Assembly (NCBI RefSeq): GCF_017876395.1
Contig: NZ_JAGINX010000002.1
Span: 1-48,067 of the forward strand
Source: Nesterenkonia lacusekhoensis
Lineage (GTDB): Bacteria > Actinomycetota > Actinomycetes > Actinomycetales > Micrococcaceae
Length of the DNA stretch: 48,067 nt
Direction of reading: 5' to 3'
The notes under the pieces were generated by a model that searched no databases, was not told where the DNA came from, and saw only the letters and a program-made list of their open reading frames with translations. Both the position numbers and the translations under genes were made by a program. Below are positions 43,013 through 48,067 of the stretch, piece by piece (the stretch's first letter is position 1; each line of letters starts with the position of its first letter).

Positions 43013-43191
43013 GCGGGTACCCCCAATAGTGTGTGGCGCATTTCGCGGCGTTCTTGTGGGGTGTTGCCGGACAGCCATCCAAGATCAGCCATAATCACGG
43101 ACCCCCATTCGGTGCCGTACTCCCGTGCCGTCTCGTTGATCTCTTCCCACTGCTCATCAGTGAGGGTCAGAGTCACCTTGTGCTTACTCAT
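43009..43191 (-). CDS. Small ribbon-helix-helix-like protein, 60 aa
   Basis: 'KHKVTLTLTDEQWEEINETA' is a strand-helix start typical of RHH antitoxin/repressor proteins, then a second helix and 'QERREMRHTLLG'. It may regulate the early operon or neutralise a neighbour. Overlaps both flanking genes. Confidence 0.6.
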   Translation of the reverse strand: MSKHKVTLTLTDEQWEEINETAREYGTEWGSVIMADLGWLSGNTPQERREMRHTLLGVPA

Positions 43192-44057
43192 CAGGCGGCC
43201 TCCAGTTCTTTGAAATCCGCGGTGGGCAGCCCTTTGCGGATCAGCAGGTCACGAAGGTCTACCTCGGGGCGTCCTGGTCGGACGTAGGTGGACTCCCGGC
43301 GCTTGCCGGCCACCATGGGGCCGTCCAGCATGAAGTAGGGCTTGCCCTTGTAGGTGGGGTGCATGTGCTCATACCCGTTCTTCTTCTCCCCGTTCTTGCC
43401 TGTGCGGGTTCCGCGCTGGTCGATCAGCAGGCCGGAGGAGTAGAGCAGCTCGAAGAACTGCCGCTCGGACACGTCCGGGAAGTAGTGCTTGTGGAACTTC
43501 CGCAGGTTCAGCCCGCGGTTGGAGTTGACCGCCGTGACGATCTCCTCGGCCTCTTCGGCGCGGGCTTCTGCGAGTTCGCGCTTCTCCCACTGGTCAGCGG
43601 CCAGGCGCAGGGCCTCGCTCATTGACTGTGGGACCGGAAGTGAAGGGGTCGCATTTGAAATGCGACCGGTCTCAGCTTCACGGGTGCGGACTGCGAAGTA
43701 GGACTGCGCCGCGGCAACTTCGGGCTTGCGAGGGTCGCCGTTCATGGCGACCAGGTAGGCGGCGTACCGGGTGAGGAGCACATCTGCGGCGGGGCGACCC
43801 CACTGGGACTTTTTGACGGCTCCGGCAAAAAGGTCTGTCACGTTCCGTCCCTGGTTCTCAGCGGTGCGCTGGGCGCGCTCTACGGCGTCCTCGAATCTGC
43901 GCCACGAGTCGTACCCCAGAAGTTCCATCAGGTCACGCCCTGACCAGAACTCGACACCATCGGCACGGTGCTGCTTGATCTGATCGAACGGGCTGGCCCC
44001 GGAGTTTTTCCCGGCGCCGGGAAAAAGGCCCAGTTCCTCTCGGATGACTTCCACCAT
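43191..44057 (-). CDS. Antirepressor with DinD-like N-terminus and KilAC C-terminus
   Basis: 288 aa. Residues 20-140 match DinD ('SPFDQIKQHRADGVEFWSGR', 'LMELLGYDSWRRFEDAVERA', 'TRYAAYLVAMNGDPRKPEVA', 'AAQSYFAVRTREAE'), a family that in E. coli is SOS-induced. Residues 195-288 are a KilAC domain ('NLRKFHKHYFPDVSERQFFE', 'MVAGKRRESTYVRPG') seen in phage antirepressors. As first large gene of the leftward operon it likely inactivates the repressor to drive induction. Confidence 0.8.
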   Translation of the reverse strand: MVEVIREELGLFPGAGKNSGASPFDQIKQHRADGVEFWSGRDLMELLGYDSWRRFEDAVERAQRTAENQGRNVTDLFAGAVKKSQWGRPAADVLLTRYAAYLVAMNGDPRKPEVAAAQSYFAVRTREAETGRISNATPSLPVPQSMSEALRLAADQWEKRELAEARAEEAEEIVTAVNSNRGLNLRKFHKHYFPDVSERQFFELLYSSGLLIDQRGTRTGKNGEKKNGYEHMHPTYKGKPYFMLDGPMVAGKRRESTYVRPGRPEVDLRDLLIRKGLPTADFKELEAA

Positions 44058-44414: not shown

Positions 44415-44453
44415 AGGCCCGTACCTGCTTGCTCCAGGTGCGGGCCTTTTCTT
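44415..44453 (+). terminator. Plus-direction terminator inside the minus operon
   Basis: AGGCCCGTACCTG / CAGGTGCGGGCCT, 13 bp with one mismatch and 7-nt loop, followed only on the plus strand by TTTTCTT. The minus side lacks a T-run. It appears to stop rightward (antisense) transcription before it enters the cro-repressor region. Confidence 0.7.
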
Positions 44454-44721
44454 ATGCGGCTGTGGACAACGGTGAATTACCAGTGAACGTGTTGAGCAAA
44501 AAGAGTTCACGGGTGGGCACCTCCAGCGCTTTCGCAATGGCGGCCGCAGTATCCACAGAGCATGTGGTCCGGTGTCGCTGCAGGTTCGTGATCGTCGTCG
44601 GAACAATCCCGGCGCGGCGGGCAATCTCTGCCTTGGTGAGGCCACTGAATCGGATGGCCATACTCAGTGCCCGCCGATCCACGGTGGCGTTGCCTCGGCG
44701 TCGCCCCTCTTCGTAGGTCAT
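44452..44721 (-). CDS. Cro-like XRE regulator
   Basis: 89 aa from ATG 44721 with AAGGAGGGG 3 nt upstream. Residues 25-75 are an XRE-type HTH ('LTKAEIARRAGIVPTTITNL', 'SVDTAAAIAKALEVPTRELF'). First gene of the leftward early operon, divergent from the larger repressor. The promoter TTGTGA-17-TATAGT lies 40 nt upstream. By position it is the lytic (Cro) regulator. Confidence 0.8.
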   Translation of the reverse strand: MTYEEGRRRGNATVDRRALSMAIRFSGLTKAEIARRAGIVPTTITNLQRHRTTCSVDTAAAIAKALEVPTRELFLLNTFTGNSPLSTAA

Positions 44722-44760
44722 ATCCCCTCCTTCCTTCGTGCTGTTCATCGGTTAATCACC

Positions 44761-44789
44761 ACTATACATGTGAGGTTCCTCCCTCACAA
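44761..44789 (-). promoter_or_regulatory. Early leftward promoter with operator in spacer
   Basis: On the minus strand TTGTGA (44789-44784), 17-nt spacer, TATAGT (44766-44761). The palindrome GTGAGG-N6-CCTCAC (44770-44787) covers the -35 and the spacer, so bound repressor would block polymerase. It drives cro and the downstream early genes. Confidence 0.75.
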
Positions 44790-44797
44790 GCCGACCC

Positions 44798-44826
44798 CTG
44801 AAATCTCCTCGATCCCCTTATTTCAG
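44798..44826. promoter_or_regulatory. Central inverted repeat between divergent promoters
   Basis: CTGAAAT-N15-ATTTCAG, perfect 7-bp half-sites midway between the two promoters and unlike the GTGAG operators. It could be the site of a different regulator, for example the Cro-like protein or an antirepressor complex. Confidence 0.4.
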
Positions 44827-44855
44827 GCGCTTCAAGCAAATTACATGGATGTTGT

Positions 44856-44883
44856 TTGTGAGCCCCGGCCTCACGCGTAGGCT
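44856..44883 (+). promoter_or_regulatory. Repressor promoter with operator in spacer
   Basis: TTGTGA (44856-44861), 16-nt spacer, TAGGCT (44878-44883). The palindrome GTGAG-N7-CTCAC (44858-44874) overlaps the -35 and spacer exactly as in the opposite promoter, so the repressor probably limits its own synthesis. The start point would be near 44890, giving a 30-nt leader with GAAGG before GTG 44920. Confidence 0.7.
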
Positions 44884-44919
44884 TGCCTTGTCCTGTTGTT
44901 GGCCTGAAGGATTACTGCC

Positions 44920-45492
44920 GTGAGAGACCTACAAACCCTGATCCGCTCCGAGATGGACGCCCGCGACCTCACCTATAGAGCAGTCGCAGAGAACGCTCAG
45001 CGGCAGGGGTACAAGGTCTCTCACGCCACGGTCACCAACTATGTGAAGGGGAAGACTCGGGCCTACACCCGGGATTCTCTGATCGCCATCGCAGCGGGCA
45101 TAGGGGTGCCCGCGGAGAAGCTTTTGTCCGCTGCTGACATGCAACCCCTGGGGGAACTATTCGAGCTCCCCGAAGAGGCGGCACTGCTGGATCCGCACGA
45201 GAGAGAAGCTGTCCGCTCCGTGGTGAACGCATTCCTTCAGAGCAAGCGGCAGAGGGCAGCCCCGGCTCTGAGCGATCACGCTGGCGGGTTGGAGGCCATA
45301 CGGCGCCATATGGAGCGCACAGGACAACTAGACGAGGAGGTGGCGAGTGATGACGACTCGACCCCCATGTACCAGGCCGCAGGGAGTGCGGCCACAGAAG
45401 ACCCCGACGACTACGACCTAGCCGCAGACGACAGCCTGCACCAAGGCGACCACGGGCAGATCGGGCCGGATGATATCGAGCACACGACATGA
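44920..45492 (+). CDS. Phage repressor (immunity, XRE)
   Basis: 190 aa, GTG start. N-terminal XRE domain (about 5-75): 'MDARDLTYRAVAENAQRQGY' and 'VSHATVTNYVKGKTRAYTRD', then a linker and a helical part ('DPHEREAVRSVVNAFLQSKR') and an acidic disordered tail. There is no LexA-like Ser/Lys peptidase domain, so self-cleavage on SOS is not expected; the ImmA/IrrE gene nearby is the likely protease, as in ImmR/ImmA. The stop overlaps the HicA-like start (ATGA). Confidence 0.85.
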   Translation: MRDLQTLIRSEMDARDLTYRAVAENAQRQGYKVSHATVTNYVKGKTRAYTRDSLIAIAAGIGVPAEKLLSAADMQPLGELFELPEEAALLDPHEREAVRSVVNAFLQSKRQRAAPALSDHAGGLEAIRRHMERTGQLDEEVASDDDSTPMYQAAGSAATEDPDDYDLAADDSLHQGDHGQIGPDDIEHTT

Positions 45493-45746
45493 TGGCGTCG
45501 CCGTACCCTTCAATGAAGGTGAAGCGATTCCGTCGGATGCTCGGGCGCGCCTTCGGCTATGAGCGGGTCAAGGGCCGGGGCAAAGGCTCCCACACCATCC
45601 TGCGCAGCAACCGGGGGTACCCCGATCTCGTTGACGGATTCCATGATGGAGCAGAGATCCCGCCACACCGGGTGAAGCGTATACTGATAGATGACGTAGG
45701 CCTGACCAACCAGCAGGCACTAGAGGTGGTGAGAGAGCATGGATAA
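45489..45746 (+). CDS. HicA-like toxin
   Basis: 85 aa. The HicA double-stranded RNA-binding-like fold is suggested by 'KVKRFRRMLGRAFGYERVKG' then 'GKGSHTILRS' with the catalytic-type His35, and 'IPPHRVKRILIDDVGL'. HicA toxins cleave mRNA and are neutralised by HicB. It overlaps the repressor stop by 4 nt and the next gene by 8 nt. It is a little longer than the minimal family because of an N-terminal extension with two extra Met. Confidence 0.75.
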   Translation: MMASPYPSMKVKRFRRMLGRAFGYERVKGRGKGSHTILRSNRGYPDLVDGFHDGAEIPPHRVKRILIDDVGLTNQQALEVVREHG

Positions 45747-46362
45747 CCTTCACATCGTGTTCACTGAGTACCCCGGATATGGCTGGTCCACCAGCTCTCC
45801 CCAGGTGCGCGGCCTCGCATGCTTCTATCCCACTGTCGATGAAGCGCAGCTGAACCTGGATGACGCGCTCCTCACCGCTGGCGTTGAGTACGGCAATGCG
45901 ATGATCCACCAGCACGAAGAGAAGTTCCTGACGGACGATGACGGGAACGAGTACCTGGTGCGCTTCTCTGTCTCCGATGCCAGCTTCGATGCTGCCAGCC
46001 GACTGATGGGATCAATCCATCGTGGCGATATTGAGCCGGACATGATCCCCATGAACCGGTCCGGAGACCGTCAGATCATTGGCGTGGATTCCACCCAGAC
46101 CCTGCGCTGGGTGAGTGATCAACTCCGGGAGGATGAGGCCGCCCTGGTCTGCTACCACCAGGGCGACGATGTTGTGTACCACTTGCCGTATGGGAACTCA
46201 TCGCGGCTGGTAAATGGCTGGGACATGGATGACCTCGGACTCAGCATGGACAGCACTGTCGAGGACGCAGTAGACGCGGTAATCTCCCGGGAGGCAAGCA
46301 CCCTGGAGAATCACGAAATCCCGGCAGCGGATGTGCGCCGAAGCCTCGTTGTAGCCCACTAG
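45739..46362 (+). CDS. HicB-like antitoxin with long C-terminal extension
   Basis: 207 aa. The first 50 residues follow the HicB pattern ('FTEYPGYGWSTSSPQVRGLA', 'YPTVDEAQLNLDDALL'), a partial RNase H-like fold that binds HicA. The remaining 150 residues are unusual: acidic mixed alpha/beta, no obvious DNA-binding HTH or RHH, so autoregulation may be left to the phage repressor. It follows HicA by overlap. Antitoxin role is inferred from domain and order. Confidence 0.6.
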   Translation: MDNLHIVFTEYPGYGWSTSSPQVRGLACFYPTVDEAQLNLDDALLTAGVEYGNAMIHQHEEKFLTDDDGNEYLVRFSVSDASFDAASRLMGSIHRGDIEPDMIPMNRSGDRQIIGVDSTQTLRWVSDQLREDEAALVCYHQGDDVVYHLPYGNSSRLVNGWDMDDLGLSMDSTVEDAVDAVISREASTLENHEIPAADVRRSLVVAH

Positions 46363-46407
46363 CTAGTCTCCACTCCTCTGTCATCAGCCCATGTCAGACC
46401 ATGGCTG

Positions 46408-46419
46408 TAGCGTCCAGGC
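46408..46419 (+). promoter_or_regulatory. Predicted -10 box for leaderless start at 46420
   Basis: TAGCGT at 46408-46413, 6 nt before ATG 46420. The 57-nt gap after the HicB-like gene holds no terminator, so ImmA may be made both from the repressor transcript and from this box. Confidence 0.35.
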
Positions 46420-46794
46420 ATGGCTGATCTTGAGGGGATCGCTCACCGGATGGGCGTGCGTGTGGAGCACCGGACCAGTCTGCGCCGAGGCAGGTGGGGA
46501 GAATACGACCACCGGCACCGGGAGATCCGGCTGCTGACTGGGCTTGGTCCGGTGCAGTACCGGTCCACCCTGGCCCACGAGCTGGGGCACGCCCACCACG
46601 GCCACTGGTGGACCAGCCTGCGGCATGAGGACCAGGCCGACACCTACGCCGCATGGCTGCTTATCAGCCCCGCAGAATGGACGCTGGCGACCGCCATCTA
46701 CCCCGACTGCCCTCAGTCCGTAGCCGCTGAGCTGGGGGTACTCCCCCGGCTGGTAGAGATCTACGCGGGCACCATCTCACCGGTCACCAGGTGA
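46420..46794 (+). CDS. ImmA/IrrE family metalloprotease
   Basis: 124 aa. Zinc protease motif 'HELGH' (53-57) in 'RSTLAHELGHAHHGHWW', then 'DQADTYAAWLLI' with a third ligand candidate Asp74. ImmA-type enzymes cleave the XRE repressor of their own element to trigger induction. Its place after the repressor unit supports that role. The end overlaps the integrase end by 11 nt on the opposite strand. Confidence 0.85.
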   Translation: MADLEGIAHRMGVRVEHRTSLRRGRWGEYDHRHREIRLLTGLGPVQYRSTLAHELGHAHHGHWWTSLRHEDQADTYAAWLLISPAEWTLATAIYPDCPQSVAAELGVLPRLVEIYAGTISPVTR

Positions 46795-47920
46795 CCACCA
46801 GAGCCGCCGACTGATCATCTTCCATGCTGATCATGTCGTAGATCCGCAGCGTGTACTCCAGACGCTCATGGCCGACCCGCTTCTGCACCACGTTGGGGCG
46901 GACGCCCTTCCGCAGCAGGTGAGCGATGTGGTTGTGCCGCAGATCGTGCACCCAAGGGCGCTCCATGAGCACGCCCTCGCTCTCGAGCTGGTGCATCAGC
47001 GGCTGCCAGCACTGCTTGTGGAAGGTGCCGTTGTAGAGCTGCTGGGCGGGCGCGTCCGTGTCGGGGAAGATCAGGTCGTTGCCGCGCAGCCCTTCCGCGT
47101 GTGCCCAGAGAGCGCGGGACAGTTCCAGGTCGAGGGGCACGTCGCGGCGACTCATCATCGTCTTGGTCAACCCGATGCGCTTGTTGTTCTTGATGGCGCG
47201 CCGGATACGGATGGTGACCTGCCCGGTGTCCGGGTCGCGGTGCAGATCCTTACGGCGTAGCTCCACCAGCTCACCCCACCGCATGCCGGTGACGGTCAGG
47301 GTCCAGATGATCAGCCGGAAGAATGGAGTCTGCGCCCGCTCTCGGAGGGTGCGCAGCTGCTCGAGGCTGAGGTCTACCGGCTCATGGGTGGGCAGCTCAT
47401 CGCGTTTGCCCAGCACGCCGAAGGCTGGGTTCTCCTTCAGGCGTTTCCCCACCTGTCGTTTCAGCGCGGAGGAGACGACGGCGTGCCGGTTGCTCTTGGT
47501 CTTCCACGCGGCCGGCTCGCCTTCCGGGCTGGCCTTGGTGATGTTGGAGCGCAGCCCGTCCAGCCATGTGGCGATGGCCTTCGGCTCCAGCTCGGACAGC
47601 GCAATGCCGGCCAGCTCGGTGCCGCGGAGGTGCCGGTCCATGTCGCGCCGGTACTTGCGGCTGGTGTCGGTGTCTTTCAGGTCGTCCAGGTACTCCTGAA
47701 CGGCGTCCCAGACGGTGTAGCCGGCTGAGTCGGCCTGCTTCTTCGCCTGCCGAGCGAGACTGAGGGTGTTCTGGTTGGCGTCCAGGTAGAGCTTCAGGGT
47801 CTCGGCCTTGCCTCTGTCCCGGAAGCTCTGCGAGGTGTCCTTGCGGAGCTCTCGGTCGTACCACTTCACGTAGTAGGACCGGGTGCCATCTTTCCGGGTG
47901 TGAGTTGTCAGGCTCGCCAT
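46784..47920 (-). CDS. int: Tyrosine integrase
   Basis: 378 aa. An N-terminal arm-binding region ('RSYYVKWYDRELRKDTSQSF'), core-binding domain (about 70-165), and catalytic domain with Arg214 ('TGMRWGELVELRRKD'), Lys near 253, His325 and Arg328 ('WVHDLRHNHIAHLLRKG'), His351 ('VGHERLEYTLRIYD') and Tyr361. It recombines attP with the tRNA gene at the right edge. No strong Shine-Dalgarno; TACAGT lies 8 nt upstream. Confidence 0.95.
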   Translation of the reverse strand: MASLTTHTRKDGTRSYYVKWYDRELRKDTSQSFRDRGKAETLKLYLDANQNTLSLARQAKKQADSAGYTVWDAVQEYLDDLKDTDTSRKYRRDMDRHLRGTELAGIALSELEPKAIATWLDGLRSNITKASPEGEPAAWKTKSNRHAVVSSALKRQVGKRLKENPAFGVLGKRDELPTHEPVDLSLEQLRTLRERAQTPFFRLIIWTLTVTGMRWGELVELRRKDLHRDPDTGQVTIRIRRAIKNNKRIGLTKTMMSRRDVPLDLELSRALWAHAEGLRGNDLIFPDTDAPAQQLYNGTFHKQCWQPLMHQLESEGVLMERPWVHDLRHNHIAHLLRKGVRPNVVQKRVGHERLEYTLRIYDMISMEDDQSAALVVTW

Positions 47921-48040: not shown

Positions 48041-48067
48041 TGGCGGAGGCGGGGGGATTTGAACCCC
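48041..48067 (-). tRNA. 3' end of a tRNA, probably tRNA-Ser (partial)
   Basis: Minus strand: CCA is encoded at 48043-48041, discriminator G, acceptor strand CGCCTCC, T-stem CCCCC and T-loop TTCAAAT up to the window end. A GGAGGCG acceptor stem with G73 is usual for bacterial tRNA-Ser; the anticodon is outside. It is the likely attB gene for the prophage. Confidence 0.8.

Follow-up and report, generated by a model that had tools for sequence, protein, structure and literature searches.

A putative HicA-like toxin gene and a long HicB-like partner gene in the apparent repressor-ImmA operon of a Nesterenkonia prophage

In contig NZ_JAGINX010000002.1 of Nesterenkonia lacusekhoensis, two genes resembling a toxin-antitoxin (TA) pair lie in what appears to be the immunity operon of a prophage. 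The contig (C2 of the two-contig, 2.74-Mb genome G000) was analysed over its whole length of 48,067 bp and is called the window below. Genes for an XRE repressor, a HicA-like protein, a long HicB-like protein and an ImmA-like protein follow one another in this order, between divergent cro/antirepressor genes and an integrase gene. A first-pass annotation of the sequence had taken the four genes as one regulatory unit of prophage immunity and addiction. We prefer, with a probability of about 60 %, to read the locus as a prophage repressor-ImmA operon with an exchangeable slot for toxin or defence genes expressed in lysogeny, in the manner of lambda cI-rexAB.

The apparent operon and its two middle genes

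The XRE repressor gene (44920..45492, + strand; PHROG repressor, E 4.5e-6) overlaps the HicA-like gene (45489..45746, +) by 4 nt (45489-45492), and this gene overlaps that of its long partner (45739..46362, +) by 8 nt (45739-45746). The open reading frames (ORFs) and both overlaps agree with those first annotated. The fourth gene (46420..46794, +) encodes an ImmA/IrrE-type metalloprotease of the M78 family (PF06114, E 5.3e-6, above the cut-off), which we take to be the COG2856 family, and an alignment of four operon ImmA proteins places its HELGH motif at residues 53-57. An XRE repressor and an M78 protease with HExxH are thus encoded together in the window, as in an ImmR/ImmA-type module. No terminator-like site was found from the repressor gene to immA by a simple scan, the two sites of which lie at 44415-44447; a promoter scan was uninformative (1 found, 0.8 expected).

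The 171-bp stretch between the cro-like gene and the repressor gene (44749-44919) carries two operator-like dyads, obtained by pattern search and shuffle test: GTGAG-N8-CTCAC at 44770..44787, with perfect 7-bp arms at 44769-44788, and GTGAG-N7-CTCAC at 44858..44874. Not even one dyad with a spacer of 4-12 occurred in any of 2000 dinucleotide shuffles of this stretch, the pattern having been picked post hoc, and the whole window holds 3 exact dyads compared to a shuffle mean of 1.0.

The proposal that the second gene encodes a HicA-type protein was borne out by structure prediction, one of the checks named by the first-pass annotation: the AF2 model, analysed with VIA-align, has the alpha-beta-beta-beta-alpha HicA fold, which resembles a double-stranded-RNA-binding domain (dsRBD), and the catalytic Gly-Ser-His motif is present at residues 33-35. 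A profile alignment sets the histidine of this motif on an alanine of PDB chains 4c26 (E 0.0075) and 6g26 (E 0.026). The H24A exchange is reported to render Burkholderia pseudomallei HicA non-toxic, and the nuclear magnetic resonance structure given is that of HicA(H24A) (PMC3969222). The PF07927 score of the window protein, 24.3 bits, is under the curated cut-off of 27, and protein P0004, which is 66 % identical to it, carries PF07927 in precomputed annotation. When 21 HicA sequences were aligned, leaving out the truncated HicA of locus L007, the histidine was kept in 19 out of 19 unfused proteins (near copies included, five reading SSH and one SAH) and in neither of the two fused ones described below. 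Another conserved histidine is present in 18 of these 19 and absent from both fused proteins. The HicA-like protein is likely to be a toxin, presumably an RNase.

A phmmer search of HicA against PDB sequences gave one spurious row only. With the HicA profile, three PDB chains of HicA were retrieved, along with a response regulator that is unrelated. With Foldseek alone no row at E <= 0.001 was obtained for the HicA or the partner model, unrelated proteins ranking first. PADLOC gave weak M78-type rows for ImmA only and no row for HicA, its partner or the three fused proteins submitted. A second PF07927 match in the genome (26195-26314, within a 510-aa ORF) was judged to be due to chance.

The partner has 207 aa, of which residues 1-89, where a HicB antitoxin would have its partial RNase H fold, are at best weakly HicB-like. 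A long, conserved extension of about 118 residues follows, shorter than the 150 first estimated. The protein has no Pfam or NCBIfam match, its best PHROG match has E 0.21, and its family is annotated as 'hypothetical'. No helix-turn-helix (HTH) or ribbon-helix-helix (RHH) element was seen in the secondary structure of the AF2 model, in agreement with the earlier remark that a DNA-binding domain is not visible; a review describes HicB proteins that lack such a domain as common (PMC11594946). Because of the weak family matches and the missing HTH or RHH element we name the protein 'HicB-like' only, and of the proposed HicA/HicB-like pair the HicB half is the weaker. In a metagenome-assembled genome of Actinomycetota (L009, 3998-4442), a HicA of the window type (43 % identity) is followed by a short HicB-like ORF with sub-threshold DUF1902 and HicB_lk_antitox matches; the long protein is thus not the sole partner of window-type HicA.

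Recurrence of the gene order and the fused forms

The order repressor, HicA, long partner and ImmA was also found in a prophage of Arthrobacter agilis (L005 = L010 = L011), in the Gordonia phages Phabuloso, LitninMcQueen and Kamaru and, in another family, in an actinobacterial prophage of genome G876, which confirms the linkage that the first-pass annotation had proposed to look for in other actinobacterial prophages. The overlap between hicA and hicB is 8 nt in all four operon types (window, A. agilis, Phabuloso and G876). In genome G1188, HicA, long partner, ImmA and integrase genes follow one another with no adjacent repressor gene seen; the ImmA protein there matches our own profile (E 1.8e-26) and no Pfam family at E <= 0.1. 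The frequencies were 5/395 in genomes of the family, 2/396 in the order sample, 19/394 in the class sample (f36 genomes account for 17, at E 6e-9 or weaker) and 3/50,697 in phage records, the samples sharing G000. At the nucleotide level the locus had no match in phage DNA. Likewise, tblastn with the window HicA in phage and plasmid records, a search of phage records for the repressor, and searches of viral contigs with single window proteins gave none; profile searches of viral contigs retrieved the A. agilis prophage contig alone.

HicA and the long partner were also encountered at 12 chromosomal loci with no ImmA profile match within the stretch examined: L004 (Pseudarthrobacter), L006 (Paeniglutamicibacter), L008 (Arthrobacter liuii, near an integrase gene), L031 (G638), the seven f36 loci L033, L034, L036, L037, L041, L048 and L050, and L181 (G1210). 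The profile is not fully sensitive, as it misses the Pfam-confirmed M78 protein of genome G1241, and the contig of L181 stops 561 bp behind the pair. With these limits, the pair does not need the immunity genes. Further f36 loci (L035, L039, L040, L042-L047, L049, L051 and L052) have long HicB-like genes with no upstream HicA detected by profile. In manual reading, a few f36 reading frames that stop at the start of the long hicB gene were seen to retain a short remnant resembling the end of HicA, which might reflect decay of HicA upstream of these genes.

The occurrence of the pair away from immunity genes, together with the unrelated genes that fill the same slot in other prophages, could mean that a mobile hicAB landed behind a repressor gene by chance and persists by addiction only. 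We consider such hitchhiking rather improbable, as the pair stands in the same place, with conserved overlaps, in four distant lineages (the window, A. agilis, the Gordonia phages and G876), and as the operon copies group together. In a first tree, from which P0033, P0038 and P0042 were excluded as partial, short or odd at one end, they group with P0001 and P0040 with 93/92 support; in a second, they group with P0001, P0040, G1188 and G1210 with 98/96 support. The second tree used 20 of the P proteins and omitted the f36 rows, and the partner alignment (A4) omits P0038 and P0042. On both trees the operon label needs 3 changes, because P0001 and P0040, and in the second tree also G1210, are rows of unknown context, and long branches were flagged.

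The Gordonia proteins differ from those of the window in being fusions. Their 'HicA-like toxin' has 168 aa and resembles HicA over its first 80 residues (pairwise E 6e-8 at 24 % identity). In Phabuloso, residues 113-166 of this protein match PF09000 (Cytotoxic, E 4.8e-13) and residues 107-159 match colicin E3 chains (best E 4.8e-5). The 'HicB-like antitoxin' has 284 aa; residues 70-272 match the window partner (34 %, E 6e-31), and there is a match at residues 7-71 to a small protein from phage UFJF_PfPro and at residues 8-70 to the product of the gene that comes immediately after an unfused Cytotoxic gene in the faecal phage MT835780. The added N-terminal domain is kin to the protein that directly follows the E3-type toxin in MT835780 and in genomes G845 and G1241. 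A classical HicB as this N-terminus was considered and rejected, the domain matching the neighbour of E3-type toxins instead. By sequence G876 bears both fusions, its match to the Cytotoxic profile being that of one of the profile's own rows. It appears that the fused HicA acquired an rRNase domain of the colicin E3 type, and the fused partner the presumed antitoxin of that toxin. Both chimeras would arise at once if a single pair, E3-type rRNase and presumed antitoxin, had been inserted in frame at the hicA/hicB junction, with decay of the HicA active site. With the HicA histidine gone in both, the double fusion may be regarded as a natural experiment. Since P0040 is unfused and groups near the Gordonia fusion, one fusion followed by loss and two separate fusions are indistinguishable.

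The fused forms also bear on the role of the pair, as they retain a HicA domain without its active-site histidine. This could mean that the two proteins belong to the lysis-lysogeny switch and do not act as a toxin and its antidote, the long partner binding the repressor or ImmA and HicA serving as a scaffold or tuning the operon mRNA, and the conserved long extension without known function would fit such a role. It is a very doubtful explanation in our view: the histidine is kept in every unfused HicA of the alignment, the pair also occurs at loci where no ImmA was found, and another toxin domain is present wherever the histidine has been lost, which points to selection for toxicity.

The interval between repressor and ImmA

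Nineteen viral loci were retrieved with the ImmA profile, an incomplete and biased set, as the scan misses the A. agilis contig, the ImmA of which was part of the query. In manual reading, the repressor gene stands directly before ImmA in 13 of them, other genes lie between the two in four, and two (L067 and L083) were not classed. The genes in between are unrelated to the pair of the window: a 132-aa membrane-like protein in L072, a lipoprotein-like protein and Abi_2 (E 1.6e-42) in L079, where the 'repressor' has no HTH match, a lipoprotein-like protein in L080, and in L081 a protein of 301 aa, which matches GAF below the threshold, followed by a protein of the SocA_Panacea antitoxin family (E 1.5e-20). 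L080 and L081 share one contig, IMGVR_UViG_2541047015, which has two repressor-ImmA operons at its two ends with different genes between. As the repressor directly precedes ImmA in 13 of the 19 loci, the interval appears to be a cargo slot and not part of one obligatory unit. The initial view of immunity and addiction as one unit stands as far as the single apparent operon goes; it is qualified by the 13 loci without cargo and by the 12 loci that have the pair without an ImmA match. The repressor may, as first suggested, take over autoregulation from the antitoxin, and its cleavage could alter control of the toxin.

The slot may also hold a different toxin. In MT835780 (L065), which is unrelated to the window, XRE (PF01381, E 1.4e-14), Cytotoxic (E 7.9e-14), antitoxin-like (no Pfam match) and M78 (E 2.3e-16) genes follow one another. 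Cytotoxic, antitoxin-like and M78 genes also stand in a row in G1241 (L178) and G845 (L179), with Pfam E values for M78 of 8.1e-8 and 1.2e-8, respectively, and with no repressor gene directly before them; in G845, an XRE-like gene, identified by manual reading, is encoded some 1 kb upstream in the opposite orientation. That toxin, antitoxin-like and M78 genes stay together without a directly preceding repressor in G1188, G845 and G1241 would be expected if the protease gated the toxin, that is, if ImmA cut the long partner or a repressor-partner complex and the inducing signal thereby also freed the toxin. A three-component system of protease, Xre protein and toxin has indeed been proposed for RelE/PIN toxins (PMC2701414). 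Still, we find gating by the protease unlikely. The ImmA of G1188 matches only our own profile and not Pfam, G845 does have an XRE-like gene within about 1 kb, if in the opposite orientation, the 12 loci named above have the pair without an ImmA match (the insensitivity of the profile and the contig end of L181 being kept in mind), and M78 directly follows a phage repressor without a toxin in 13 of 19 loci. A wider proposal, that the interval is a general dock for protease-gated toxins and that toxin, antitoxin and M78 form a portable unit sensing induction or attack, appears to us doubtful to a similar degree. In this proposal it would not matter which toxin fills the slot (HicA, an E3-type rRNase or a fusion of the two), and in the fused form decayed HicA and its partner would be a mere dock that puts the new toxin under the common control.

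With the preferred reading of a repressor-ImmA operon with an exchangeable slot, the locus could work as follows. In the lysogen the repressor, bound at the two dyads, would keep the divergent lytic promoter in check, and one transcript would carry the repressor gene, hicA, the long hicB-like gene and immA. The HicA RNase would be silenced by the long partner, the translation of which may be coupled to that of the toxin by the 8-nt overlap. As expression of the two genes would be confined to cells that make the repressor, the pair may serve both lysogeny-linked defence, i.e. abortive infection or exclusion as with lambda rexAB and CarolAnn 43/44, and prophage addiction. ImmA, last in the operon, is expected to cut the repressor on induction, and synthesis of the pair would then stop or change. 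Precedents are described in two papers: CarolAnn 43/44 are co-transcribed with the repressor gene and defend against phage Kita, rexAB being co-expressed with cI (PMC6426606), and Adephagia gp91/gp90 are a working HicAB TA pair of a phage with a lysogenically expressed antitoxin (PMC11373665).

The repressor itself, 33 % identical to that of A. agilis, has the tail motif DDYDLAA at residues 163-169 (45406-45426). Similar D-[YV]-[DG]-[LI]-A-[AS]-like tails were seen at 3/5 operon loci checked and at 4/19 ImmA loci (the positions besides that in the window being L011 3885, L053 5783, L079 2196, L080 3081, L081 816 and L083 3338), and the motif was not present in the two Gordonia loci checked (L027 and L028). 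The host tmRNA tags AESKRTDFALAA and ANSDVKQNEFALAA have an end similar to this motif, and therefore an ImmA cut behind it could bare an SsrA-like degron; that the DYDLAA tail turns into a ClpXP degron in this way is speculative. The host genome has two tmRNA genes above the Rfam cut-off with differing tag peptides (G000:C1:1582429-1582804 and C1:777051-777418). As a search key the tail motif was unspecific, only 1/78 viral stretches (L140) encoding an HTH repressor with an ImmA match behind it. When L027 (3678-5648) was compared with L028 and L029 (3573-5648), the fused genes were near-identical (at least 99 %), the repressor tails similar and the repressor N-termini quite different. In these Gordonia phages the cargo and the repressor tail stay together and the DNA-binding part differs.

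On the divergent lytic side, a Cro-like XRE regulator (44452..44748, - strand; PF01381, 25.8 bits, cut-off 23) and an antirepressor-like gene (43191..44057, -) were found, the latter with Bro-N above the cut-off (PF02498, E 4.7e-8) and ANT/KilAC below it (PF03374, E 0.036). The convergent tyrosine integrase gene (46784..47920, -; PF00589, E 6.4e-16) overlaps the end of immA by 11 nt. The last bases of the window, 48043..48067, resemble an attachment core: they are identical in 25/25 bases to G000:C1:1926213-1926237, the 3' end of a tRNA-Ser gene which is intact on the chromosome contig. The prophage makes up a separate contig with this tRNA-Ser-identical stretch at its end, and it is either an extrachromosomal or excised copy or the result of a split assembly. 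At the left end of the window, two adjoining small genes (1147-1644, DUF6941, E 6.3e-9; 1644-1892, DUF4258-like, 21.9 bits, cut-off 25) could be a second TA-like pair.

Comparison with known systems

The first-pass annotation had regarded the arrangement as undescribed. No description of the HicA arrangement or of the double fusion was met in the literature surveyed, which was covered in part, but the Gordonia annotation and a prediction of 2009 precede it. Phabuloso (ON526981), LitninMcQueen (PP208924) and Kamaru (PP978784) have cro-like/repressor, HicA-like, HicB-like, metalloprotease and integrase genes as does the window. They differ from it in their middle genes, which are fusions with an E3-type rRNase and a presumed antitoxin and in which the HicA histidine is lost. 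Two of the three records name the genes HicA-like and HicB-like without mentioning the fusions, and in Kamaru they are hypothetical proteins; the neighbourhood itself is therefore already in public annotation.

The prediction of 2009 concerns a three-component system of a COG2856 protease, an Xre protein and a RelE or PIN toxin, said to be abundant in phages and prophages (Makarova 2009, PMC2701414). Protease, Xre protein and toxin stand in one predicted operon in the window as well. The toxin, however, is not of the RelE or PIN type but HicA or an E3-type rRNase, each with a separate antitoxin-like partner, and the locus therefore works like this class at most; in addition, the Xre protein of operons of the window type is a phage repressor. 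The recurring unit, in which a toxin and a protease presumed to cut the repressor are encoded along with prophage immunity, makes the prediction testable with culturable Gordonia and Arthrobacter phages, and the interval between repressor and ImmA is a place to find new toxins and defence genes.

The pair shares with the type II TA system HicAB of B. pseudomallei, E. coli and Adephagia the dsRBD-like HicA fold, the Gly-Ser-His motif and an adjacent partner, and has the toxin gene first; in Adephagia gp91/gp90 the order is opposite, with the antitoxin upstream. It differs in the 207-aa partner with its uncharacterised extension, in which no HTH or RHH was seen, and in its position inside a phage repressor operon. 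With ImmR/ImmA of ICEBs1 and other XRE and M78 pairs the locus has in common the XRE repressor and the HExxH M78 gene in one apparent operon near an integrase gene, and it differs from them in the TA-like pair between repressor and protease, repressor cleavage being presumed here. As in lambda cI-rexAB and Gordonia phage CarolAnn 43/44, two cargo genes lie directly behind the repressor gene and are expected to be expressed in the lysogen. The proteins are unrelated, the window encoding a putative HicA-type RNase and closing the operon with an ImmA-type protease, and the likeness is one of architecture only.

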